Shown: positions 2,073-22,726 of the stretch, in pieces
Layout: every line of letters starts with the position of its first letter
Numbering within the stretch: the stretch's first letter is position 1
Assembly: GCA_021228405.1 (NCBI GenBank)
Contig: JAJQRF010000004.1
Location: 62,001 to 126,000, forward strand
Source of the DNA: Pyrinomonadaceae bacterium
GTDB taxonomy: Bacteria; Acidobacteriota; Blastocatellia; Pyrinomonadales; Pyrinomonadaceae
Length of the DNA stretch: 64,000 nt
Direction of reading: 5' to 3'
Notes under the pieces: model-generated
Databases searched by the model: none
Seen by the model: only the letters and a program-made list of their open reading frames with translations
What the model was told of the DNA's origin: nothing
Program-made: the position numbers and the translations under genes

Positions 2073-2109
2073 ATTTTTTGTGATTCGGCGAAATGCCCGA
2101 TAAAAGTAA

Positions 2110-3366
2110 TCAATTGTTGCTGTTAAATCTCACTATTCCCTGCCTGGCTAATCCGTTAACTTCATTTATTTGTCCAAATACCAATACTTTCCCGTCTTTT
2201 TGCAACAATACGCCTGAGCCAAACGGAAAATAACCGCCCGTGAAATTTATTTCATTCCTGAACGAATGATCTTTTTTTCCATTTGAAAAAAATCTGACCA
2301 GATTTGCACCGTCCTGAGCCGTTCCGTTTTGGCTCAAAGCAATTATTTTCCCGTCTTCCTGAAGATAGATTTTTGTGCCGTAAAGCGGTTGAAGATGCTC
2401 AAATGTATCAATTATGTCGCCGTTTTGATTCATTCTGTAAATTCCGTTGATCGTTTCATTCCAAAGTCCCGAATTGTTTGTAATTTTTCCGCTAATCAGC
2501 AAATTTCCGTCTTTTTCGATGACAACGTCGGTCAGATCGCTGACTTCCCAGGCGTTTTTATATTCTTCGGACGTTTTGCTCCAGCGAAACGTGGAATCAA
2601 ACCCGCCGTCAGAATTCAATCTCGGAAATAAACCGATCGAAGCCCAATTTTGATTAGAAAGAGCCAAATAAATTTTCCCGGCGGTTCCGATAGCTGATTT
2701 ATTAACATTTACCAATCCGCCGCCGTTGTTACTTGAAAAAGACGTATCCAAAGTGCCGTCACCTTTCAAACGGGCAACTTTATACATCGATTGACCATTG
2801 ACGATCTCAAAGTAGCCCGAAACCAGCAATTTGCCGTCAGGATAAATTTGAATGCCGAAAATATCGATCAAGCCGAACGAGATAAAAGTAGCTGAACTAA
2901 ACGTATTATCAATAGTCCCATCCGTATTTAACCTGATAATTCGCCAATCTTTTGCAACCAATATTTTGCCGTCCGATTGTAATTTAATTACCGAGATCGG
3001 ACTTTCGGAATTCCAACCGACCGGTTCCTGAAAGAGGAAAGTTTTATCGATCGAACCGTCCGTATTCAATCTCACAACGCGGTCTGACATCTCGCCGGAT
3101 GGTTCATTGATCAACTTAAATTTTCCGCCAATTAAAATTTTTCCGTTCTTCTGAATAGCCGCCGCAGTTATCTCAGCATTCGGCTGTATCTTTGGCGAAA
3201 AAGTGTCATCGATTCCGCCGTTTTGAAATAATTTTTCTTCTTTTTTCGCCTGTGCTTTTTTTGGATGAAAAGTAGTTTCTTTTTCCTGTGAAAATGAAAA
3301 AGAAACCGCTAAAATTAGTAATAAATTAATGGAAAACAGGTGTTTTAGTCTTAGATTTGAAATCAT
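2110..3366 (-). CDS. Secreted delta-60 repeat protein (paralogue 2)
   Basis: 418 residues, similar along its whole length to the next gene downstream. It has a signal peptide (LLLILAVSFSFSQ) and a charged Lys-rich linker. It then carries delta-60 repeats with IQKNGKILIGGKF-type strands alternating with RLNTDGSIDKTF-type strands, and it ends RQGIVRFNSNN where the paralogue ends KYGIVRLNTNN. It is probably the first gene of a two-gene unit. Function is unknown beyond a likely exported beta-propeller. Confidence 0.85.
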   Translation of the reverse strand: MISNLRLKHLFSINLLLILAVSFSFSQEKETTFHPKKAQAKKEEKLFQNGGIDDTFSPKIQPNAEITAAAIQKNGKILIGGKFKLINEPSGEMSDRVVRLNTDGSIDKTFLFQEPVGWNSESPISVIKLQSDGKILVAKDWRIIRLNTDGTIDNTFSSATFISFGLIDIFGIQIYPDGKLLVSGYFEIVNGQSMYKVARLKGDGTLDTSFSSNNGGGLVNVNKSAIGTAGKIYLALSNQNWASIGLFPRLNSDGGFDSTFRWSKTSEEYKNAWEVSDLTDVVIEKDGNLLISGKITNNSGLWNETINGIYRMNQNGDIIDTFEHLQPLYGTKIYLQEDGKIIALSQNGTAQDGANLVRFFSNGKKDHSFRNEINFTGGYFPFGSGVLLQKDGKVLVFGQINEVNGLARQGIVRFNSNN

Positions 3367-3533
3367 ATTTTGCTTTTACTGTTTTTTGAGTTTTATGGTT
3401 CAGGCTCAGACTCTCATTTAATTATAGTTTTAATAACTGTAAAGTTTCAATTGTTTTTAACTATGTTCAACCTTATCTTGTCTGTCCGTAATCGTCGAAA
3501 CACCGAAAAATTATTGATTCATTTAATAAACTC

Positions 3534-3603: not shown

Positions 3604-5856
3604 ATGAATCGTTTCAGAGTCGTATTTCTGAGTTTTTTGCTGTTTGTTCCCGTCTTTGTTTACGGACAAACGAGCGATCCTTCGCTTTTGTCGATAGAGC
3701 GAATTTTTAATTCCGATGATTTCAGCGCGAAAGGTGTCGGCGGACTTCGCTGGATGAAATCGGGCGATGCTTATTCAAAGATCGAGCCTTCACCAACCAT
3801 TCAGGGCGGCAGTGAACTCGTCAGTTACGATGCCGCGACAAATGCGCGGACGGTTTTGCTTTCCGCCGAAAAACTTATCCCGAAGGGCGAAACAAAACCT
3901 TTGCCGATCAATGGCTACGAATGGTCGACCGACAATAAGCAAATGCTGATCTATACAAACTCGAAGAAAGTTTGGCGTTTGAACACGCGCGGCGATTATT
4001 GGGTTCTGGATTTGGCGAGCGGAAATCTGAAAAAGCTGGGCGGCGACGCGAAACCTTCGACGCTGATGTTTGCAAAATTTTCGCCCGACGGAACGCGTGT
4101 CGGTTATGTTCGGGAAAACAATATTTACGTCGAAAATATCGCCGACGGAAAGATCACTCAATTAACGAATGACGGTTCGCGGACATTGATAAACGGAACT
4201 TCGGATTGGGTCAACGAAGAAGAATTTTTCCTGCGCGATTGCTGGCGTTGGAGTCCCGACAGCAAATCGATCGCTTACTGGCAATTCGACGCGAGCGGCA
4301 TCAAGGATTTTCTTTTGATAAACAACACCGACGACATTTATCCCGTCATCACGCAAATTCCTTATCCGAAAGCCGGAACGACGAATGCGGCGGTGCGCGT
4401 CGGCGTTGTCAACGCGGACGGCGGACAGACGAAATGGATGAATACGCCCGGCGATCTGCGCCAAAATTATATCGCAATGATGGATTGGACGGAAAACTCG
4501 AACGAGCTCATTCTCCAACATTTGAATCGTCTGCAAAACACTCTGCAATTAATGGTTGCGGACGCGAAAACGGGGGCGGTCAAAACTGTTCTGACCGAAA
4601 AAGACGACACCTGGACGGAGGTTTTTATGCAGAAACTTCGTTGGCTGAATAACGGGAAAAATTTTCTCTGGATGAGCGAACGCGACGGCTGGCAGAGGAT
4701 TTACAACGTTTCACGCGACGGAACGAACGTAAAACCGATCACGACGGGCAATTTCGATGTTGTCAGTTACAACGGAATCGATGAAGCGAACGGTTGGGTT
4801 TATTTTGTCGCATCACCCGAAAACGCAACACAACGTTATCTTTACCGTTCAAAAACGGATGGCAGCGGAACGGCTGAAAAAGTCACGCCCGAGGATCAGA
4901 AAGGCTGGAACGGATATAACATTTCGCCGAATGGAAAATGGGCTTTTCATACTTATTCGGCATTTACGACCGCGCCGCGTTTTGAGATCGTCAATCTGAC
5001 GAACAAAACCGTCGTCCGCACGTTGGAAGACAACAAGGATTTGCAAGCGAAAATAGATCAGGTCAAAAAAGGACCGCAGGAGTTTTTCAAGATCGACATC
5101 GGCGAAGGAATCACGCTCGACGGCTGGATGCTCAAACCGCCCGGATTCGATCCGTCGAAAAAATATCCCGTTCTTTTTTACGTTTACGGCGAACCTGCCG
5201 CGCAAACCGTCACGGATTCGTGGAACGATACGGATTATTTGTGGCATACGATGCTTTCACAGCAAGGTTATATCGTCATCAGCGTCGACAATCGCGGAAC
5301 ACCCGCACCGCGTGGTCGCGCCTGGCGGAAAAGCATCTACCGCAAAATCGGTGTGGTAAATGCCGCCGATCAAGCCAACGCCGTCAAAGCGATCTTGGCG
5401 AAATCCCCATTTATCGACAGTTCACGAGTCGGCATCTGGGGTTGGAGCGGCGGCGGCGTTTCGACTTTGAGCGCGATGTTCAAATATCCCGAAATTTACA
5501 AAATGGGAATGTCGGTCGCGCCCGTCGCCGACCAACGGCTTTACGACACGATCTACACCGAACGTTATATGGGAATGCCGCAGGAAAACGCCGAATTTTA
5601 CAAACAAGGCGCACCGATCAATTTTGCGAACGGCTTGAAAGGCGATTTGCTGATCGTTCACGGCACGGGCGACGACAACGTTCATTATCAAGGCACGGAA
5701 AATCTAATAAACGAACTGGTCAAACTTAATAAGCCGTTTCAAATGATGGCTTATCCGAACCGCACGCACAGCATTTCCGAGGGAGAAGGCACGACCGTTC
5801 ATTTATACAATCTTCTGACCGATTATTTAAACGAACATCTGCCAGTCAATAAATAA
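3604..5856 (+). CDS. Dipeptidyl peptidase IV-like serine peptidase (S9B)
   Basis: 750 residues, close to the DPP-IV length. A signal peptide (to about VFVYGQ, residue 22) points to the periplasm or outside. The N-terminal beta-propeller carries the family motif DWVNEEEFF, whose paired Glu residues hold the substrate N-terminus in DPP-IV, followed by WSPDSKSIAYWQFD. The C-terminal alpha/beta-hydrolase domain has a nucleophile elbow GWSGGG (Ser615), Asp690 in GTGDDNVH, and His722 in NRTHSI, a complete catalytic triad. It should release N-terminal dipeptides, often X-Pro. The ATG has a GGAG site 7 nt upstream. It stands alone between a delta-60 pair and a convergent Uma2 gene. Confidence 0.93.
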   Translation: MNRFRVVFLSFLLFVPVFVYGQTSDPSLLSIERIFNSDDFSAKGVGGLRWMKSGDAYSKIEPSPTIQGGSELVSYDAATNARTVLLSAEKLIPKGETKPLPINGYEWSTDNKQMLIYTNSKKVWRLNTRGDYWVLDLASGNLKKLGGDAKPSTLMFAKFSPDGTRVGYVRENNIYVENIADGKITQLTNDGSRTLINGTSDWVNEEEFFLRDCWRWSPDSKSIAYWQFDASGIKDFLLINNTDDIYPVITQIPYPKAGTTNAAVRVGVVNADGGQTKWMNTPGDLRQNYIAMMDWTENSNELILQHLNRLQNTLQLMVADAKTGAVKTVLTEKDDTWTEVFMQKLRWLNNGKNFLWMSERDGWQRIYNVSRDGTNVKPITTGNFDVVSYNGIDEANGWVYFVASPENATQRYLYRSKTDGSGTAEKVTPEDQKGWNGYNISPNGKWAFHTYSAFTTAPRFEIVNLTNKTVVRTLEDNKDLQAKIDQVKKGPQEFFKIDIGEGITLDGWMLKPPGFDPSKKYPVLFYVYGEPAAQTVTDSWNDTDYLWHTMLSQQGYIVISVDNRGTPAPRGRAWRKSIYRKIGVVNAADQANAVKAILAKSPFIDSSRVGIWGWSGGGVSTLSAMFKYPEIYKMGMSVAPVADQRLYDTIYTERYMGMPQENAEFYKQGAPINFANGLKGDLLIVHGTGDDNVHYQGTENLINELVKLNKPFQMMAYPNRTHSISEGEGTTVHLYNLLTDYLNEHLPVNK

Positions 5857-8458: not shown

Positions 8459-8532
8459 GCACCTGTAGCTCAGCTGGATAGAGTATCTGGCTTCGAACCA
8501 GAGGGTCGCAGGTTCGAATCCTGCCGGGTGTA
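8459..8532 (+). tRNA. trnR: tRNA-Arg (anticodon TCG)
   Basis: A full cloverleaf can be drawn. The acceptor stem is GCACCTG with CGGGTGT (two G-U pairs), the D arm GCTC/GAGT, and the anticodon stem TCTGG/CCAGA around loop CTTCGAA (anticodon TCG, reading CGA). The T arm is GCAGG-TTCGAAT-CCTGC, with discriminator A. The 3' CCA is not encoded (TCA follows). The 3' half from the anticodon loop onward is repeated at 19894-19939, so this gene is the integration target of the neighbouring element. Confidence 0.95.
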
Positions 8533-8536
8533 TCAA
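8491..8536 (+). repeat. attL core (tRNA 3' half)
   Basis: 46 bp identical to 19894-19939. It begins with the anticodon loop CTTCGAA and ends four bases past the tRNA discriminator base. Tyrosine recombinases commonly cross over within the anticodon-loop region of such cores. Confidence 0.92.
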
Positions 8537-8551
8537 TTAAATCAACAAGTT

Positions 8552-9667: not shown

Positions 9668-12307
9668 ATGACACATCTTTATCAGATACTGAGCGAGAAA
9701 ATAAAGCTTTGGCGCGAAAATGAATATCAATCTGAATTTCCTGTTATTTCAGAGATTTTTGACTATGCCAGAATTGCCGATTCTGACGAATTAAGATTTC
9801 TTCGAGCCGCTCAGTTGAAGGCTTTAGAGGTTTATTGGTATTTACGCTTAATTGAAAAAACTCCAAAAGTTTTTAGTCTTTACAACAAACTGTTTTCAGC
9901 CAGAAGCCAAAAACTTACAGCTTTAGGTATAGACCGCACAAAGCCAGAAATAAGCGATATTTTAATTGATTTCGATGAAAATTATCTGTTTGAAAAAATC
10001 CGCACTGATGACGAATTTGTCAGCCGAATGAAGTTTGAGGCAATTCGTGAAAGTATGACTTTGGATTATCCAAGTTATATTTTGGCTTTGGCGATGGGCG
10101 CAGGAAAAACAATTCTGATCGGAACAATTATTGCCACAGAGTTTGCAATGGCGATGGAATATCCAAAGATAGAAAGCGAACAACAATTTATTAAAAATGC
10201 TCTCGTCTTTGCGCCGGGCAAAACCATTCTAGGAGCGTTAAGAGAAATAGCAGACATTCCGTTTAATAAAGTGTTGCCGCCACGTCTTTATAAACAATTT
10301 GCGGCGAACTATAAACTAACTTTCACGCAGGACGGCGAAAAGAATCTGCCAATCATACAAGGCAGTAATTACAATATAATTGTAACCAATACCGAAAAGA
10401 TTCGGATTCAGAAAAGCACAGGAGCAAAACGCGGCGCAAATGCCAACCAAATAAAACTATTCGACACAAAGGAAAAAGAAGAAATCGAAGTTGCAAACCT
10501 GCGATTGCAAGCGTTAGCAAGTCTTCCAAATCTCGGTATTTTTTCCGACGAAGCGCACCACTTAAACGGGCAAGATTTAACCAAAGATTTGAAAAAGGTT
10601 CGTAAAACCGTTGATTATTTGCACGAAAACACAGATGTAATATGCGTGATTAATACAACGGGAACGCCTTATTATGAAAAGCAGCTACTGAAGGATGTTG
10701 TAACTTGGTATGGATTATCCGAAGGAATTCGTGACAATGTTCTAAAAGACGTTGAGCATAACATAAAATCCTACTCATTCGACGGAACGCGAACGAATGA
10801 ATTTTTAGAGTTAGTTTTGCAGGATTTTTTTGAAAACTATCGAAATGTTCGATTGCCAAACGGCGCGTGGTCAAAGATTGCTATCTACTTTCCGCAAGAA
10901 GATGATTTAACCGAACTTCGCCCAACTATCGAGCGAAAGCTAATTGAATTAGAAATTAACATAACAACGATTCTGAAAAACACTTCAAAATCAACTGCCG
11001 TAGAAATCGCAGATTTTGACCGTCTAAATGATCCGAGTTCACCGCATCGTGTCATTTTGCTTGTCAACAAAGGAACGGAAGGTTGGAATTGTCCTTCACT
11101 TTTTGCAACCGTTTTAGCTCGTAAATTAAAAACGAGCAATAACTTTGTATTGCAAGCAGGAACACGTTGTTTACGGCAAGTGGTTGGTAATAAACACAAG
11201 GCAAGTATCTATCTTTCAAATGACAACGTAAAAGTTTTAGATTCACAGATGCAGGAAACATTTGGCGAATCCTTGAAAGATATTCAGGAAGCTAAATCAA
11301 ATTCAGTTAAAACTACGATTACGCTTAAAAAGTTAGATATTCCGCCGCTTGTAGTTAAGAAAATAATTCGTCAGATTGTTCAGATCAAAGATGCCGAAAA
11401 AGTTAAATCGAGCCTCAAACTTACGATGCCTCAAATTGAAGTTGATCGCCCGAAAATAACGGTTAATACGTTTATTACTCAGCAATCGAAGATTTCAAAG
11501 AATGTATTGCGGCAAACGACGGAAACCCCAATCGAGCTTGAATATGACACAATCGATTTGTTTTTATTATCAAGTGAACTTGCGGCAAACTTTCATCTTG
11601 ATAATCGTTTTGTTTATGAAAGTCTGCAAGCGATTTACCAAGATGAAATCGAAGTTCCCTCTAGTCATCGCTCGGAGTTGGAAAATCAGATAACCGAACA
11701 ACTTTCGATTTATGAAACAAAGGAATTTGAGGTAGAAGAAGCGTTAGCTTTGGTTAAATCAGAAGGTTTTGACGTAACCCAAGATGGCGATAATATAATT
11801 TACACAGCACAAATTTCTTACCCGAAGGCAAAAGAACATTTAATTTTGGCGATGGAAACTGCCGCTAGAGATAATCCAAATAATTTTGGTTTTCACTATA
11901 CGCCTTATAATTTTGATTCTTCACCCGAAAACGATTACTTTACTCAGATGATTGCAAAGTTAAACGCCAAACCAGAAGAAATAGAAGATATTTATTTTAT
12001 TGGCGGCACGTCTTCGATCAGTAAAACCGATCTTTATATTGAATACAAAGGAAAGGATGGAAAGTGGCATAATTATTTTCCTGATTTTATTGTCAGATTA
12101 AAAAATGGCAAGTTTTTAATTGTCGAAATCAAAGCAGTTCGGGAAAAAGACGATGAAGACAATGGCATTAATGGCACAAAAGCAATGGCAATGCGTAAAT
12201 GGGAAAACCTCAACCCTGAAAAACTAAAATATCAGATTATTTATTCTGATGACACAATTCCTTTTGACGAACTTTCGAAGAGTCAGGAACTGCTCGCAAA
12301 TTTATAG
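9668..12307 (+). CDS. Type III-like restriction enzyme, Res subunit (helicase-nuclease)
   Basis: 879 residues with superfamily 2 helicase motifs. Walker A is MGAGKT near residue 143, motif II is SDEAHH near 294, and the motif III-like TTGTPYYEKQ follows. Motifs V/VI appear in NKGTEGWNCPSLF and LQAGTRCLRQV, with Gln/Arg residues for ATP coupling. The C-terminus has a PD-(D/E)XK nuclease signature, FPDFIVRL followed by FLIVEIKA (near 804-818). Type III Res proteins translocate along DNA from unmethylated sites and cut with their Mod partner. The adjacent methyltransferase supports this. The order res then mod is the reverse of classic EcoP1I/EcoP15I operons. Its cargo position makes it a defence or maintenance function of the element. 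Confidence 0.88.
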   Translation: MTHLYQILSEKIKLWRENEYQSEFPVISEIFDYARIADSDELRFLRAAQLKALEVYWYLRLIEKTPKVFSLYNKLFSARSQKLTALGIDRTKPEISDILIDFDENYLFEKIRTDDEFVSRMKFEAIRESMTLDYPSYILALAMGAGKTILIGTIIATEFAMAMEYPKIESEQQFIKNALVFAPGKTILGALREIADIPFNKVLPPRLYKQFAANYKLTFTQDGEKNLPIIQGSNYNIIVTNTEKIRIQKSTGAKRGANANQIKLFDTKEKEEIEVANLRLQALASLPNLGIFSDEAHHLNGQDLTKDLKKVRKTVDYLHENTDVICVINTTGTPYYEKQLLKDVVTWYGLSEGIRDNVLKDVEHNIKSYSFDGTRTNEFLELVLQDFFENYRNVRLPNGAWSKIAIYFPQEDDLTELRPTIERKLIELEINITTILKNTSKSTAVEIADFDRLNDPSSPHRVILLVNKGTEGWNCPSLFATVLARKLKTSNNFVLQAGTRCLRQVVGNKHKASIYLSNDNVKVLDSQMQETFGESLKDIQEAKSNSVKTTITLKKLDIPPLVVKKIIRQIVQIKDAEKVKSSLKLTMPQIEVDRPKITVNTFITQQSKISKNVLRQTTETPIELEYDTIDLFLLSSELAANFHLDNRFVYESLQAIYQDEIEVPSSHRSELENQITEQLSIYETKEFEVEEALALVKSEGFDVTQDGDNIIYTAQISYPKAKEHLILAMETAARDNPNNFGFHYTPYNFDSSPENDYFTQMIAKLNAKPEEIEDIYFIGGTSSISKTDLYIEYKGKDGKWHNYFPDFIVRLKNGKFLIVEIKAVREKDDEDNGINGTKAMAMRKWENLNPEKLKYQIIYSDDTIPFDELSKSQELLANL

Positions 12308-12325
12308 GATTTGATTTCAAATACG

Positions 12326-14206
12326 ATGGCAAAGACGAAAGAAGAAAAGAAAACTACAACAGCAAAAGTTGAGAATGCAAAAGGTCGCCCGATGCTTCAT
12401 TGGGTCGGTAAAAAGACAATTGACAGTGTTCATTCTTATCCTGCACAACTTGTAGAGCAATATGCTTGTAACGAAACGGAAGAGGAAACAAACCTCTTAT
12501 TTCACGGTGATAACAAAGAAGTTCTAGCCTATTTGCTTACAAATGGTTATAGAGGAAAAGTCGATTTGATTTATATTGATCCGCCTTTTGATAGCAAAGC
12601 TGATTATGTTCGTAAAGTTGAATTGCGTGGAGTAAGAAACGCCGAAGAATTTGAAGCTGAGCGACAGACTATTTTTGAGCAGTTACAATATTCAGATATT
12701 TGGGCTAATGATAACTATTTACAATTTATGTTTGAAAGATTGATTTTAATGAAAGATTTACTATCAAAAAATGGAAGTCTATTTCTACATTGTGATTATA
12801 GAAAAGTTCATCATTTACGGCTTGTTTTAGATGAGGTTTTTGGAGAGGAAGGATTTGTTAATGAAATAATCTGGCTTGCAGAAGGAGGCGGAGCATCAGG
12901 ACTTAGATTCGGAAGAAAACACCAAACAATTTTATATTACTCAAAAACTAACAAAGATTCTGATAGAGTTTTCAATGGAGATGCTGTCCGTGTTGCTTAT
13001 AAAACTGAAAATATTGGACCTCAAACATATCATTTTGATTCTAATACAAAAAAAAGACCCGGATTCAAAGATGGATATACTTGGACTCCAAATGAAAACG
13101 GTAAAGTTCCAACCGATGCTTGGTTGGATTGCTTTTTAGCTGAATCTGAGGGGATACCCTTAGATGTTTGGTTTGATGTAAAAGGTTTATATGGACCTTC
13201 TGGAGAAATTATGAACTATCCTACCCAGAAGCCTATTTCTTTACTTGAAAGAATAATAAAAGCTGCTTCTAATCCAAATGATGTGGTTTTTGATTGTTTT
13301 CTTGGTTCAGGAACAACCGCCGCAGTCGCTCAAAAACTCGGTCGGCGGTGGATAGGTTGCGACATCAATAAGGGGGCGATTCAAACCACAAGCAAGCGTC
13401 TGCAAAATATTATTGACGAACAGCGCAAAACTTTACAACAACCCTCTTTGTCACAGAGTGATGAGAATACCGATGAAAAGTTGAGTCCTGTTCTTTCGTT
13501 CAAGCATTATCGAATCAATGATTATGATTTAAACATACAGCACAACGAAGCATTTGAACTTGCGCTTGAGTATGTCGGCGTAACGCGCAAACGAACAGAC
13601 AGCTTTTTTGAGGGCGAACTCGGCAAAAAACTCGTTAAAGTTGTTCCGCTCAATCATCCCTGCACATTGCTCGATATTCAAGCGGTCGAAACCGAACTTA
13701 AAAACCGTCCCGAAGAAGATCGAGATATAACAATGATTTCGCTAGGCAAAGATTCTAATGTTGATAAGCATTTAGCTGATTACAACAAACGAAATGCCGT
13801 GAATAAAATTGATTTGATCGAACTACGCACCGATGAAAAATATGGCAATTTCCTAATCCATCAACCAGCTTGGGCAGATGTCAAAATCAAGCGAATTGAC
13901 GACGGCAAAATATCGGTCAAGGTTGATAATTTCAATTCGCCGACAATCATCCAAAGATTGAAATTAGATGAAACGATTTTCCGCGAAAGAGTGACGGATT
14001 TCCGCGCAATGATTGATGTTTTGTTAGTTGATACAAATTACGACGGCAAAGTATTTAATATTTGTTACTCAGATGTTCCGTCAAAAAAGACCGATATGAT
14101 AAACGGCAATTATGAGTTACCACTTTCAACTGAAAGTAAGTCCGTTGCAGTGAAAATTATTGATATGTTAGGTGAAGAAGTTTTGACAGTAGTGTCTATT
14201 GTCTAA
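12326..14206 (+). CDS. Type III-like DNA methyltransferase (Mod)
   Basis: About 626 residues, starting at ATG 12326, 19 bp after the Res stop; an upstream in-frame TTG at 12311 is less likely. It is an amino-methyltransferase of the beta class. Catalytic motif IV, LIYIDPPFDS, lies near residue 84, and the AdoMet-binding motif DCFLGSGTTAAVAQKLGRR near 321, so motif IV precedes motif I as in type III Mod proteins. The sequence between is the likely target-recognition region. The C-terminal 300 residues (from about LSFKHYRIND) are probably for Res contact. It should methylate adenine N6 (inferred from class), protecting host and element DNA. Confidence 0.88.
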   Translation: MAKTKEEKKTTTAKVENAKGRPMLHWVGKKTIDSVHSYPAQLVEQYACNETEEETNLLFHGDNKEVLAYLLTNGYRGKVDLIYIDPPFDSKADYVRKVELRGVRNAEEFEAERQTIFEQLQYSDIWANDNYLQFMFERLILMKDLLSKNGSLFLHCDYRKVHHLRLVLDEVFGEEGFVNEIIWLAEGGGASGLRFGRKHQTILYYSKTNKDSDRVFNGDAVRVAYKTENIGPQTYHFDSNTKKRPGFKDGYTWTPNENGKVPTDAWLDCFLAESEGIPLDVWFDVKGLYGPSGEIMNYPTQKPISLLERIIKAASNPNDVVFDCFLGSGTTAAVAQKLGRRWIGCDINKGAIQTTSKRLQNIIDEQRKTLQQPSLSQSDENTDEKLSPVLSFKHYRINDYDLNIQHNEAFELALEYVGVTRKRTDSFFEGELGKKLVKVVPLNHPCTLLDIQAVETELKNRPEEDRDITMISLGKDSNVDKHLADYNKRNAVNKIDLIELRTDEKYGNFLIHQPAWADVKIKRIDDGKISVKVDNFNSPTIIQRLKLDETIFRERVTDFRAMIDVLLVDTNYDGKVFNICYSDVPSKKTDMINGNYELPLSTESKSVAVKIIDMLGEEVLTVVSIV

Positions 14207-14275: not shown

Positions 14276-14836
14276 TTAATCAGCGACTGCATTTTCTTTG
14301 GCTTCTTTGAGTATTTGTTCTTGCTTCTTTTGCACGTCTTTTTCTCTCATTTTCTCAGAAATTTCAAAAAGATCGTATATGTTTTTTCTGATTTGCCACC
14401 AAGCTATAAATACTAATGTTAAAGTTCCAATTGCAAAACTGAAGCAAATCGCTGATGTAAATTGGCTACCAATAAAACCTACTGTAATTTGCAGAAAGGA
14501 AGTCCCTAAAGCCATTATCACAGCGACTAACAAAAGTTCAGCTAAATGTGTAATCGGATCATATATTTTTATTTTTTCATCTTTAAATCGATCTCTTGCA
14601 AATTTTTCAATGTAAACATCTTGGTCATAAAGTTTGTCTTTCAATTGCACTATAATGAATGTTTTTAGAGTTAGTAAAAAACTGCCTAAAGTGAGAAAGC
14701 CTGTAAACAAAGGGGTTTGTAATTTGTTATTATAAACAGTATTGAAATCAACGAAGAAACTATTCAAAATTAGACCTAAAACGATTGAAAAAAATAAAAT
14801 GCAAATAACTGTAACTACTGTTTGTTTTGATTTCAT
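14276..14836 (-). CDS. Four-helix membrane protein, second gene of a two-gene module
   Basis: 186 residues with four predicted membrane segments (about residues 8-28, 41-62, 97-117 and 126-147), a charged loop between the second and third (DKLYDQDVYIEKFARDRFKD) and a long charged helical tail. Its start overlaps the stop of the upstream gene by 4 bp (ATGA), so the two are translationally coupled. No family is recognised by eye. A soluble sensor-sized protein followed by a four-helix membrane protein recalls lambda RexA-RexB, and Kiwa also pairs a four-helix protein with a soluble one. The homology is unproven. It is AT-rich, like the rest of the element. Confidence 0.8.
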   Translation of the reverse strand: MKSKQTVVTVICILFFSIVLGLILNSFFVDFNTVYNNKLQTPLFTGFLTLGSFLLTLKTFIIVQLKDKLYDQDVYIEKFARDRFKDEKIKIYDPITHLAELLLVAVIMALGTSFLQITVGFIGSQFTSAICFSFAIGTLTLVFIAWWQIRKNIYDLFEISEKMREKDVQKKQEQILKEAKENAVAD

Positions 14837-15714
14837 ATAATCACCTTATCACTTTGATCTAACCCTGTGATTGGCAAAGTTTCCTTATAAATCCGAATTA
14901 GTTCTTTTATACTTTGCGAACTATTCACAGATTTGTTTCTGCTTTTATCATTAAATTTGAGATTTTTCATCCATTCTTCAAAGTCTTGCTCATAAAATAC
15001 TTCCACATCATTAGCAGTTGTATAAGCAGTTTCAATGTCGCCAATATTTCCTTCGATTCTAAGGTTTTCCGGTTGTTCCTCATAAAAAATTGAAGAAATA
15101 GAATTTTTTATCTTTTTTAGATTCCATTTGTCACGCTTATAAAACAAAAATTGTTCAACTCTTCGACTTGCTTCTTCATTCAACTTACGATAGTGCGGTG
15201 CTTGAACTTCATAATGCGATGTTTCAATTGTTACTTTGTTTATTCGGTCAAATTTTTCCAAATATTCTTCAAATGATCCTTGCCGAAACAATGCTGATGT
15301 TACTAACCAAGCCTGACGATTATTTGTATCTTTTTTGAAATTATTAAATCTATGTCCTAAGTATTTAGCAAAATATGTCCAACCAGATGTTTTTGAATGC
15401 GATTGAAACAAACCTTTTCTTGTGATTGTATTAATCAAAAAGAAATTAAAATCACCGTGATAGACATTTTTGTCAGTTATTCGATGCAATACGGTTTCAA
15501 TCTCGTCTTCCGTTAATTTAACTTGAGGGAAAATTCTTTCTTCTTTCAAATGCAATAAATAACCTCCCCAAAGCATATCGGCATTTTCAATTTGATCTAC
15601 AACAAGAATCCTATCTTCTTTTGTATAAGAAACTTCTTTTTTCAAATATCGTAAGAAGTCATAAATAGTTACATCTTGAAAATCTAGCGCAAAACCAGAA
15701 GTTTTTACTTTCAT
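14833..15714 (-). CDS. Soluble protein of unknown function, first gene of a two-gene module
   Basis: 293 residues with no signal peptide or membrane helix. The N-terminal half is beta/alpha mixed (VTIYDFLRYLKKEV, then RILVVDQIENADMLWGGYLL and a patch FNFFLINTITRKGLFQSHS). The C-terminal half is more basic and helical (FYKRDKWNLKKIKNSIS). No known domain is recognised. Size, absence of membrane segments and coupling to a downstream four-helix protein parallel RexA, the sensor of the lambda RexAB exclusion system. The N-terminal layout of two short hairpins followed by a strand-rich FxFFxxxxxxxG segment is loosely similar. This is inference, not detected homology. Confidence 0.8.
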   Translation of the reverse strand: MKVKTSGFALDFQDVTIYDFLRYLKKEVSYTKEDRILVVDQIENADMLWGGYLLHLKEERIFPQVKLTEDEIETVLHRITDKNVYHGDFNFFLINTITRKGLFQSHSKTSGWTYFAKYLGHRFNNFKKDTNNRQAWLVTSALFRQGSFEEYLEKFDRINKVTIETSHYEVQAPHYRKLNEEASRRVEQFLFYKRDKWNLKKIKNSISSIFYEEQPENLRIEGNIGDIETAYTTANDVEVFYEQDFEEWMKNLKFNDKSRNKSVNSSQSIKELIRIYKETLPITGLDQSDKVII

Positions 15715-15931
15715 TTAGCGAGAGTCCTGAATTATTAATATTTATTGGAACCCGCTCAATATGACAAAATCAAAAATAAAAGTCAATCAATTTACTAACA
15801 TTGTTTCATATCTAATACAATATCCCAAGTGAGCAATTATTTTCTTGTTGTTGAAATTGAGGAAATATTTCAAACTAGCGACCGTTTGCGCGTCAAAGCT
15901 ACCCGTAATCTGAAAAACTCTCAGGAAGAAC

Positions 15932-18495: not shown

Positions 18496-19737
18496 CTAAT
18501 TCAAAAAATCATTTTCAATTTGTTCGTGAATTTGTGTCTGTTCTTCCATTGGCTGTATTGGTTGTAAATTGAAAGCATTCAATTTTTCATTTATTTCTTG
18601 CGCCATAGAAAGATCGGTTGCAGTGTAATGCTTCATAGTTGTTTGAAGTTGAGAATGCCCGGCAAACTTTCCGGCAATTGCAAGCGGTGTGTTATTTTGA
18701 AGCCATCGCGTAATCGCAGTTCGTCTTAAATCGTGAAAGCGTAGATCATTCAAACCTGCAATTCTTTTTGCTGTGGCAAACGAACGCTTTATATCAACAT
18801 AGGGAAATGGATTTTCACCCTTTGAAATTTCTTTTAGTTTTTCGAGTTCCACTTTTGATCGTTGTGTTAAAGGCGCGATTCTTGGACGTTCGGTTTTAGT
18901 ATGAGTTCCGATAATATTTATCACGTTGTTATCGAAATCAATATCTTGCCATCTGAGTTTCAAAATTTCCCCGCGCCTCATTCCGCTGTCCAAAGCTAAT
19001 AGAATCATTCCTTTCAAATGCGGGTTATCTACTGAGATTGTCGCTTCAATTTCTTCAACTTCGTTCGGATTATTCTTTTTCGTGCGTTCGTAAGTTATTT
19101 GACGTTCACCTTGACAGGAATTTAATAAACGATTTTCTTCTTCACGCGTCAATAAACGAGTCCGGGCAGTTTCGTGAGAAACGTCAATCACACCTGCATT
19201 AAAAAAGATGTCACGCAAAACCCAACCTTTGCCGTAAGCGTAACGCATCATTTTACGCATTACGGAAAGATCACGGTTGACGGTTGTCAATTTTACGGTC
19301 GCATCTTTTTTGGTCTGTGATTTTCGTTTCAAACGCCACATTTTATAACTTCGTAAACTTTCCGTTGTAATCTCGTTTAATAATCGTTTGCCGTAAAATT
19401 CTTTCAAAACTTTGAGTTGACCGACAACCGTTACGCTTGAACGAAGTCCAGCAATCTTGCGTCCTTCTACGATCACGGCGGGTTTATAAAATTCTTTTTC
19501 GCAAATGTCGCATAATTGGGAAAAAGTCATTCTCTCGCCTGTTTTGATTTGCCCGTGAGTCTTTTTAAGATCATTTACCAATTTATCTCTTAAATCGGTC
19601 GCATTCGTTTTTAGATCGGCGTGACGTTCCATATAACAGGTCTTGCCTTGAATTTCGTCAAAATACTGTATTCTGACAACCCACGAACCTTTGCTTTTTC
19701 CTGTTTTCCGCTTAAAGATTTTTGTTTTGATTTCCAT
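18496..19737 (-). CDS. Tyrosine recombinase (integrase)
   Basis: 413 residues in the usual phage-integrase layout: an N-terminal arm-binding part, a SAM-like core-binding domain (about 70-170) and a C-terminal catalytic domain. Catalytic residues are complete: Arg254 in SGMRRGEILKLRW, His335 and Arg338 in HDLRRT, His361 in AGHSQLQTTMKHY, and nucleophile Tyr371. It catalyses integration into, and excision from, the tRNA-Arg gene. It is transcribed inward from the right end, 156 bp from the attR core, with probable arm sites just before its start codon. Integrase binding there could autoregulate expression. Confidence 0.95.
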   Translation of the reverse strand: MEIKTKIFKRKTGKSKGSWVVRIQYFDEIQGKTCYMERHADLKTNATDLRDKLVNDLKKTHGQIKTGERMTFSQLCDICEKEFYKPAVIVEGRKIAGLRSSVTVVGQLKVLKEFYGKRLLNEITTESLRSYKMWRLKRKSQTKKDATVKLTTVNRDLSVMRKMMRYAYGKGWVLRDIFFNAGVIDVSHETARTRLLTREEENRLLNSCQGERQITYERTKKNNPNEVEEIEATISVDNPHLKGMILLALDSGMRRGEILKLRWQDIDFDNNVINIIGTHTKTERPRIAPLTQRSKVELEKLKEISKGENPFPYVDIKRSFATAKRIAGLNDLRFHDLRRTAITRWLQNNTPLAIAGKFAGHSQLQTTMKHYTATDLSMAQEINEKLNAFNLQPIQPMEEQTQIHEQIENDFLN

Positions 19738-19893: not shown

Positions 19894-19939
19894 CTTCGAA
19901 CCAGAGGGTCGCAGGTTCGAATCCTGCCGGGTGTATCAA
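19894..19939 (+). repeat. attR core (duplicated tRNA-Arg 3' half)
   Basis: 46 bp identical to 8491-8536. It lacks the tRNA 5' half and cannot encode a tRNA, marking the far junction of the element. Confidence 0.92.
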
Positions 19940-19946
19940 GTAGATC

Positions 19947-19992
19947 AATAAGAAATAAGGAGCAACCGTCAAGTTGCTCCTTATTTCTTATT
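19947..19992. terminator. Strong bidirectional terminator, probably the original tRNA-Arg terminator
   Basis: Perfect 20-bp arms (AATAAGAAATAAGGAGCAAC and complement) with a 6-nt loop, right after the attR core. It also lies just downstream of the HNH gene stop on the minus strand. Confidence 0.85.
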
Positions 19993-21022: not shown

Positions 21023-22726
21023 TCATTCAATTGTCCGAAAATATATGTCGCTGATATTTTCGCTCAAGTTGATCGTCCGTGTCGGATTTTCAAAAAAGTA
21101 ACGCTTCGACTCGATCGTGATGATGCAAGTGCCGGGCGTTACTTCGTTAAACTGATAGTAACCGAATGAATTTGTGCGCGTAATGCGTGTGATCCCGGTC
21201 GCATCGGTCAAATAAACCAATACGTTGCGAATTCCTTTCTCATTGATTTCGACACGTCCGCTTAACGAGTAATTGACGGAGCGCGGAGCAGTGTCGCCCA
21301 ACAAGCGGACGATCGTAAACAAGCCGTTCGCATCGCCGACGGCTACTGCTCTGCCGGTCGAGTCGAGTGCCATTCCATACAGCAGATCACTGCTTGCCCC
21401 GCGAATGTCAAATGTTACTCTGCCCGCCGTTCCATATGTAGTGTCCACCGAACCGTCCGCATTGTAGCGGATGAGATTGTAATCGGCTCCGATTCCCGGA
21501 TTTGTATAACCGGCGGCAACAATTTTACCGTCAGGCTGAACTGCGACTCCTTTAACTTCGTCACTTGAAACGGCGATAAGCGTGGTCAATTTGCCGTCCG
21601 TGTCGAACGAAGTATCGAGCGAGCCGTTCGTATTGTAGCGAACAAGCGCAAAATCATAATAAGTTCCGTTTCTGCTTTGCCCTGCCGCCACGATTTTTCC
21701 GTCCGGCTGAATTGAAAGAGCATTTATCTGATCGGTTGAGGTCAGAACCGGAGTTATTACTTTGCCGTCAAAGTCGAATGATGTGTCGAGCGAACCGTTC
21801 GTATTGTAACGAACGAGCGCAAAATCGATGTTTGAACCGTTGTAAGTATAACCTGCCGCGATGATTTTGCCGTCTGCCTGAAGCTTGACCGCATAAGCCT
21901 GATCGGTCGAACTCAAAACTCCCGTGATCGCTTTCCCGTCGCCGTCAAACGAAGTATCGAGCGAGCCGTTCGTGTTATATCTGACCAACACGAAATCATA
22001 ATTTGTTCCCGTAAAGCTATAACCTGCAATAATTATTTTGCCATCCGCCTGAATTGCCACCGCGCGCCCGAGGTCTTCATAACTCGAAATGGCGGTCGTC
22101 ACTTTGCCGTCTGTGTCGAAGGAAGTATCAAGGGAGCCGTCCGTGTTGACCCGAATAACCGCAAAATCAAGATTAGCGGCATAACTTTGTCCCGCCACGA
22201 CAATTTTCCCGTCAGGCTGAATCGCCAATGCAAAAGTGCTGTCGTCGCCGCTCAAAACGGGAGTCGTCATTTTACCATCGCCGTCGAACGTCACGTCGGG
22301 CGAACCGTCTGAATTGAGCCGAACGACCGCAAAATCGAGGTTTGTCCCGTAAACTTGTCCTGCAATAACGATTTTACCGTCGGATTGAATGGCAACGGCA
22401 ACACATTCAAACCTTGAATTTATCTGCACAACCGTTTTGCCGTCGCCGTCAAAAAGCGTGTCGAAGGTTCCGTCAGAGTTATAACGCGCAACGCCGCAAC
22501 TGTAAGTCGTTCCGAAATGAACGGGTCCGGCGACGACGATTTTGCCGTCGCTCTGGATTGCCGTCCCGCGAACTATATCGCTCCCGCCGATTCCGATGGG
22601 TTCAAAAGATTTTCCGTCAAGTGAAAAAGTCGTGTCTAAATCTCCCGGTGCACCATTGGCAGTCGAAAGAAACCACAAAAAAAGCGTCAGCAAAAGACAG
22701 ATAGAGTAGCCTGTATTCTTGTTCAT
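21023..22726 (-). CDS. Secreted delta-60 repeat protein with C-terminal regulatory-like beta domain
   Basis: 567 residues with a signal peptide (LLLTLFLWFLSTANGAPG). About eight delta-60 repeats follow, each with IQPDGKIVVAGQ- and VRYNTNGSLDTSFDTDGK-type strands, nearly identical at the DNA level in the middle copies. The last 90 residues (from SLSGRVEINEKGIRNVLVYL) form a carboxypeptidase-regulatory-like or SdrD-B-like sandwich with NSFGYYQFNEVTPG, a common tail on exported Acidobacteriota proteins. Probably surface or periplasmic; no enzyme motif. A strong terminator follows. Confidence 0.88.
   Translation of the reverse strand: MNKNTGYSICLLLTLFLWFLSTANGAPGDLDTTFSLDGKSFEPIGIGGSDIVRGTAIQSDGKIVVAGPVHFGTTYSCGVARYNSDGTFDTLFDGDGKTVVQINSRFECVAVAIQSDGKIVIAGQVYGTNLDFAVVRLNSDGSPDVTFDGDGKMTTPVLSGDDSTFALAIQPDGKIVVAGQSYAANLDFAVIRVNTDGSLDTSFDTDGKVTTAISSYEDLGRAVAIQADGKIIIAGYSFTGTNYDFVLVRYNTNGSLDTSFDGDGKAITGVLSSTDQAYAVKLQADGKIIAAGYTYNGSNIDFALVRYNTNGSLDTSFDFDGKVITPVLTSTDQINALSIQPDGKIVAAGQSRNGTYYDFALVRYNTNGSLDTSFDTDGKLTTLIAVSSDEVKGVAVQPDGKIVAAGYTNPGIGADYNLIRYNADGSVDTTYGTAGRVTFDIRGASSDLLYGMALDSTGRAVAVGDANGLFTIVRLLGDTAPRSVNYSLSGRVEINEKGIRNVLVYLTDATGITRITRTNSFGYYQFNEVTPGTCIITIESKRYFFENPTRTINLSENISDIYFRTIE

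Follow-up and report, generated by a model that had tools for sequence, protein, structure and literature searches.

What is the role of two overlapping genes, one encoding a soluble and the other a membrane protein, in the cargo of an integrative element of a Pyrinomonadaceae bacterium? The genes, designated A and B, are located in the 64,000-nucleotide stretch of DNA analysed here (hereafter the window), where a first-pass annotation had described a soluble protein of 293 residues whose gene overlaps by 4 bp that of a four-helix membrane protein of 186 residues, and had suggested an exclusion module with a RexAB-like or Kiwa-like layout. The open reading frames (ORFs) and the ATGA overlap were found as described (Table 1); on the minus strand A is upstream and B downstream, and translation of the two genes may be coupled through the overlap. 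Four hydrophobic segments are present in B (residues 6-24, 47-65, 101-119, and 126-144), and its second transmembrane (TM) segment carries the motif LFxGFxTxGSFLLxxKTF...LKD, which is conserved in an alignment of 29 members. A candidate promoter region was identified 5' of A; the number of promoter-like sites near it was not above that in shuffles and is thus no evidence by itself.

Table 1. Coordinates of the A-B gene pair and of features of its host element in the window
Feature	Coordinates	Strand	Basis or remark
Gene A	14833..15714	-	ORF with ATG start, 293 aa, soluble
Gene B	14276..14836	-	ORF with ATG start, 186 aa, four-TM membrane protein
ATGA overlap, start of B and stop of A	14833..14836	-	Sequence
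Candidate promoter region 5' of A	15731..15786	-	TTGACT-17-CATATT with TG; TTGAGC-17-AATAAT; weak
Left attachment-site repeat, 59 bp	8491..8549	+	At 3' end of tRNA-Arg 8459-8532
Right attachment-site repeat	19894..19952	+	Direct repeat, 95% identical to left
Tyrosine integrase of element	18496..19737	-	Pfam PF00589 E 7e-24
Type III-like restriction subunit (ResIII)	9668..12307	+	Pfam PF04851 E 2e-6
N6/N4 DNA methyltransferase, partner of restriction subunit	12311..14206	+	Pfam PF01555 E 4e-49; PADLOC MTase_III E 2e-61

The pair is held by an integrative element of 11.4 kb that is bounded by tRNA-Arg-derived att repeats and encodes an integrase and a type III-like restriction-modification (R-M) system, in agreement with the earlier description of an element carrying an R-M pair. 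The restriction subunit also gave a below-cut-off match to a TnsA-like nuclease domain, and a small HTH-type gene and a rep-like gene, both recognised by eye, are likewise located between the repeats. The G+C content rises from 30% in A and B to 37-38% across the R-M and integrase regions of the element and 44-46% in the surrounding DNA. ORF analysis and domain searches revealed no phage structural genes and no CI in the element. Outside the element, a 168-171-bp repeat occurs seven times in tandem (21510-22557) within an ORF on the minus strand (21023-22726) that encodes a repeat-built protein.

Neither protein had been assigned to a family by sequence in the first-pass annotation, and Pfam, NCBIfam, and PADLOC models likewise gave no convincing match to A or B. 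Weak matches that were far below cut-offs or local were rejected; for B these were to cytochrome bd subunit II, HemY, and MprF, and for window A or homologous proteins to a glycoside hydrolase, Rad1, or TPR proteins. No match was obtained when phages and genome contigs were searched with the window A protein, or when plasmids were searched with Geothrix A and window B, and a scan of viral contigs with an A profile was likewise without result; consequently, the family was assembled through the better conserved B. Among 396 genomes of the same phylum, a distant A homologue was found in Geothrix rubra (L006 = L066), with a B homologue directly behind it (30% identity to window B, E 1e-24). Geothrix A is a clear member of phrog_2802 (E 3e-23), a phage protein family of unknown function to which E. 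coli A belongs with E 4e-185; window A, which matches this family at E 0.0016 only and is linked to it via the Geothrix intermediate, is a distant member.

Searches with B profiles yielded 71 locus records (51 viral, 10 genome, and 10 further viral), some of which overlap or are near-identical. An A homologue is located immediately upstream of B on the same strand in every one of these loci, mostly overlapping it, and searches starting from A always reached a B (Geothrix L006/L010, L011, Pantoea L131/L072, and L132); the order of soluble gene followed by membrane gene holds in all loci. The ATGA overlap recurs in L006, L067, L069, and L132, and other members have overlaps of 14-29 bp or, in a few, short gaps. 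A and B identities correlate across 35 loci (mirror tree; r = 0.966, Mantel p = 0.001), and dN/dS, where measurable, is approximately 0.04-0.1, with dS near saturation. Given this constant pairing, the mirrored identities, and the low dN/dS, the sequences indicate that A-B is a co-inherited two-gene unit, and a real module rather than a chance arrangement. In several loci (L024/L070, L049, L056, L033, L042, L044, and L050) a frameshifted or truncated A is found beside an open B; this recurrent disruption may stem from sequencing errors or from counter-selection of toxicity that is triggered by A.

Cellular members come from Acidobacteriota, beta- and gammaproteobacteria, and a Bacteroides MAG; numerous viral contigs also hold the pair, as do the lambdoid phages vB_EcoS-569R4 and mEp460_4F5. 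Of 5,426 complete genomes of E. coli, 218 (4%) have the pair, in all cases on the chromosome, and the members listed are annotated as 'hypothetical protein'. The G+C content of the pair is 0.30-0.36 in most members compared to 0.41-0.69 in most flanks; the Geothrix pair, for example, has 33% G+C within a chromosome of 69% G+C. The first-pass annotation had asked whether homologues are paired and lie near defence genes. They are always paired and sit in prophages, and defence neighbours are found in some loci only, such as HsdM/HsdS in E. coli E7-1N7 and a retron-type RT in L127 (assigned to this locus by reading the sequence); flanks elsewhere contain CI, S24 peptidase, DnaB, Q, and head and tail genes. 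Copies outside recognisable prophages comprise the window element, the Geothrix islet (L066), and L132. Adjoining the Halomonas pair, L065:1802-2965 encodes, as judged by eye, a protein with an HsdR-type restriction nuclease N-terminal domain.

In the E. coli lambdoid prophages examined, the pair occupies the interval between the antiterminator gene Q and the methylase/lysis block, on the strand opposite the late genes. This site is variable: a related prophage (L135) has no cargo there, and in L133 (E. coli 123636) it holds a lone antisense gene for a hypothetical protein of 339 aa with one predicted TM segment (3930-4949). Occupation by this single gene marks the interval from Q to the lysis block as a hotspot for cargo. 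The flank DNA of the E. coli site matches 1,636 genomes, and a joined-flank search in E. coli returned no full-length empty site, the position being taken up by other cargo or by diverged flanks. In L134 (E. coli Sanji) the site contains genes for a soluble 273-aa and a four-TM 161-aa protein (2094-3424, equivalent to NZ_CP011061.1 305487-306817). These genes are AT-rich (29% G+C), have no detectable sequence similarity to the A-B family or to RexAB, and represent a candidate second exclusion pair of the same plan.

The AlphaFold2 model of A, built from the family alignment (pLDDT 77.6, pTM 0.64), is a two-part alpha/beta protein in which a seven-strand N-terminal part is followed by a helix, alternating strands and helices, and C-terminal helices, a modelled order that resembles the published two-domain layout of RexA. 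A Foldseek search of the PDB with this model gave E. coli RdgC as the best match (2owl; E 1.2e-4, prob 0.99), followed by CENP-N and Iml3; the global TM-score against RdgC is low (~0.28), owing to two-domain flexibility or to real distance. Lambda RexA (8TWQ), the sequence of which is present in that PDB set, was absent from the best 50 matches. In BFVD, A matched five uncharacterised phage proteins (E 3e-9 or better) and, at lower rank, phage RdgC-like proteins. With a model of moderate confidence, A is thus predicted to adopt an RdgC/Iml3/CENP-N-type fold. Fold relatives reported for lambda RexA are RdgC, IML3, and CHL4, and RexA itself is only distantly similar to RdgC (Dali Z 4.4) (PMC11077077); the structure prediction recommended in the first-pass annotation places the A model in this fold set. 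By sequence, A was not similar to E. coli RdgC in a profile comparison, RdgC PF04381 has no Pfam match in A or the homologues scanned, and a PDB profile search gave no match. The model of B (pLDDT 89, pTM 0.76) has four TM helices, which coincide with the four hydrophobic segments, and long cytoplasmic extensions; no fold partner was found in the PDB, a result of little weight given that B is a small helical membrane protein.

Lambda RexAB and A-B share a soluble gene product of ~280-310 aa followed by a four-TM one, carriage by temperate phages, and, by prediction, the two-domain RdgC-type fold of A. The TM segments of B correspond closely in position to those of lambda RexB (8-26/48-66/84-102/116-134), and a cytoplasmic 2-3 loop is predicted in both. 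The two systems differ in that lambda rexA and rexB (279 and 144 aa, in the same order) are separated by a 15-bp gap whereas the window genes overlap, in that window B is longer than RexB and has a long cytoplasmic C-terminal helix, and in that rexAB is located downstream of CI whereas A-B has its antisense position between Q and the lysis genes or belongs to a non-phage element. For sequence comparison, a reference set of 12 RexA and 13 RexB proteins, down to <20% identity to lambda, was used. Alignment by hhalign of 36 A with the 12 RexA proteins (score 21.1, shuffled maximum 22.1) and of 38 B with the 13 RexB proteins (score 12.9, shuffled maximum 20.2) was not significant, nor were comparisons of single sequences and 4-member profiles against shuffled and reversed controls. 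Pfam RexA (PF15969) and RexB (PF15968) had no match in A, B, or the homologues scanned; RexA (PF15969) is rare in the genomes searched (0/294 and 2/248), and DUF4747 proved uninformative. An N-terminal MKVxxxGF likeness of A to distant RexA was not counted as evidence. By sequence, A and B could thus not be placed in the RexA and RexB families, and the RexAB-like proposal of the first-pass annotation stands for gene order, sizes, four-TM topology, and the RdgC-type fold predicted for A, but not for sequence homology.

Very divergent RexA-RexB pairs, with roughly 18-31% identity to lambda, were observed in L112-L118, L089, and L090, and take the RexAB family far past the near relatives of lambda; in L112 and L118 the pair is closely preceded by a gene for a CI-like repressor. 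Published exclusion systems that are highly divergent from lambda Rex include P. putida RexABpp (PP_5643-5644), CarolAnn gp44/gp43, and Sbash gp30/gp31, each of which is prophage-borne and combines a RexA-like soluble protein with a four-TM effector. RexABpp is likened to A-B by its published description, and the CarolAnn pair, which was compared by sequence, gave no significant profile match to A-B; a weak TM2-loop likeness of B to CarolAnn gp43 was not counted as evidence. Several characterised Rex-like pairs are located near a repressor, unlike A-B in E. coli.

Based on plan and fold rather than on sequence membership, we consider it likely that A-B is an abortive-infection (exclusion) pair, borne by prophages and mobile elements, that works like lambda RexAB, of which it is most likely a sequence-divergent relative or analogue. 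According to the scheme by which published Rex-type pairs act (PMC12894663, PMC6426606, PMC6426596), A, probably a dimeric DNA clamp of RdgC/RexA fold, would be the sensor of phage DNA or of a DNA-protein intermediate, and during infection either a phage protein or the metabolism of phage DNA would activate it. Activated A would contact the cytoplasmic side of B, namely its 2-3 loop and C-terminal helix, and switch it on; B would then damage or open the inner membrane, with the result that growth stops before phage mature and the infection is aborted. Our observations concern anatomy (the pairing, the topology of B, the predicted fold of A, the horizontal spread, the antisense cargo position in prophages, and the proximity to R-M genes), and DNA binding, dimerisation, triggering of B by A, membrane damage, and phage exclusion are proposed by analogy; no experiment on any member of the A-B family was found in the literature searched.

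The same anatomy could accommodate a reversed logic, in which A is the antiviral or toxic agent and B restrains it until infection. The Rex-like pair gp30/gp31 of mycobacteriophage Butters works in this order, and neither pairing nor topology discriminates between the two schemes; in the other published Rex-like pairs, however, the role of effector has been proposed for the membrane protein (PMC12894663). The loci with an open B beside a broken A also argue against reversal, if weakly, since a restrainer without its toxin would be harmless as well, and we regard reversal as unlikely. A role in lysogeny control, with A acting on DNA to modulate prophage induction and B antagonising A, is suggested by the second role of RexA, on the CI-Cro switch (PMC11077077), but the pair also occurs in the three settings outside recognisable prophages and is far from CI in the E. 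coli loci examined, making this role distinctly unlikely. Both of these readings are less likely than the RexAB-like scheme.

The pair might alternatively be non-defence cargo, for example a membrane-anchored pair that binds DNA and serves in replication, segregation, or recombination. Proteins of RdgC-type fold act as DNA binders during recombination, and the phage RdgC-like proteins among the BFVD matches of A would fit such a role. We nevertheless consider it quite improbable: the sporadic, AT-rich, and mobile distribution, together with the antisense position at a variable site, points to accessory morons rather than core replication genes, and RdgC is a stand-alone recombination protein for which we know of no four-TM partner, whereas A is paired with B. 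Least probable by far is a Kiwa-type membrane defence, the other layout proposed in the first-pass annotation, in which a four-TM sensor (KwaA) is combined with a DNA-binding effector (KwaB). Kiwa and A-B are alike in that a soluble protein of ~300 aa is combined with a four-TM one, but KwaA is encoded upstream of KwaB, which is the reverse of the A-B order. PADLOC includes KwaA and KwaB models, yet no PADLOC model matched, those for Kiwa giving no match at E up to 5 with the window pair and three homologous pairs; DUF4868 had no Pfam match in A-B, and no Kiwa entry was present among the best 50 fold matches from a library that may hold no Kiwa structures.

Exclusion of the RexAB type is already known; the A-B family is undescribed as a defence system in the literature and databases searched. 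It is possible, and we suggest it tentatively, that A-B represents an unnamed and widespread defence family, non-orthologous to RexAB by sequence, in which an RdgC-fold sensor and a four-TM effector were combined independently or anciently, and which spans at least three phyla in settings that range from lambdoid prophages and further viral contigs to integrative elements and chromosomal islets. A 2026 paper counted only five Rex-like systems (PMC12894663). If the A-B reading is true, the family would, together with the Sanji pair, indicate that the RexAB plan is general, with many unrecognised families. RexAB, the first exclusion system to be observed, still poses the question of how phage is sensed; A-B, which has no match in PADLOC-DB 2.0.0 although 4% of the complete E. 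coli genomes carry it, would offer a tractable second model, and the diversity of A and B across phyla would allow one to ask whether the plan of an RdgC fold plus a four-TM protein defines such immunity.
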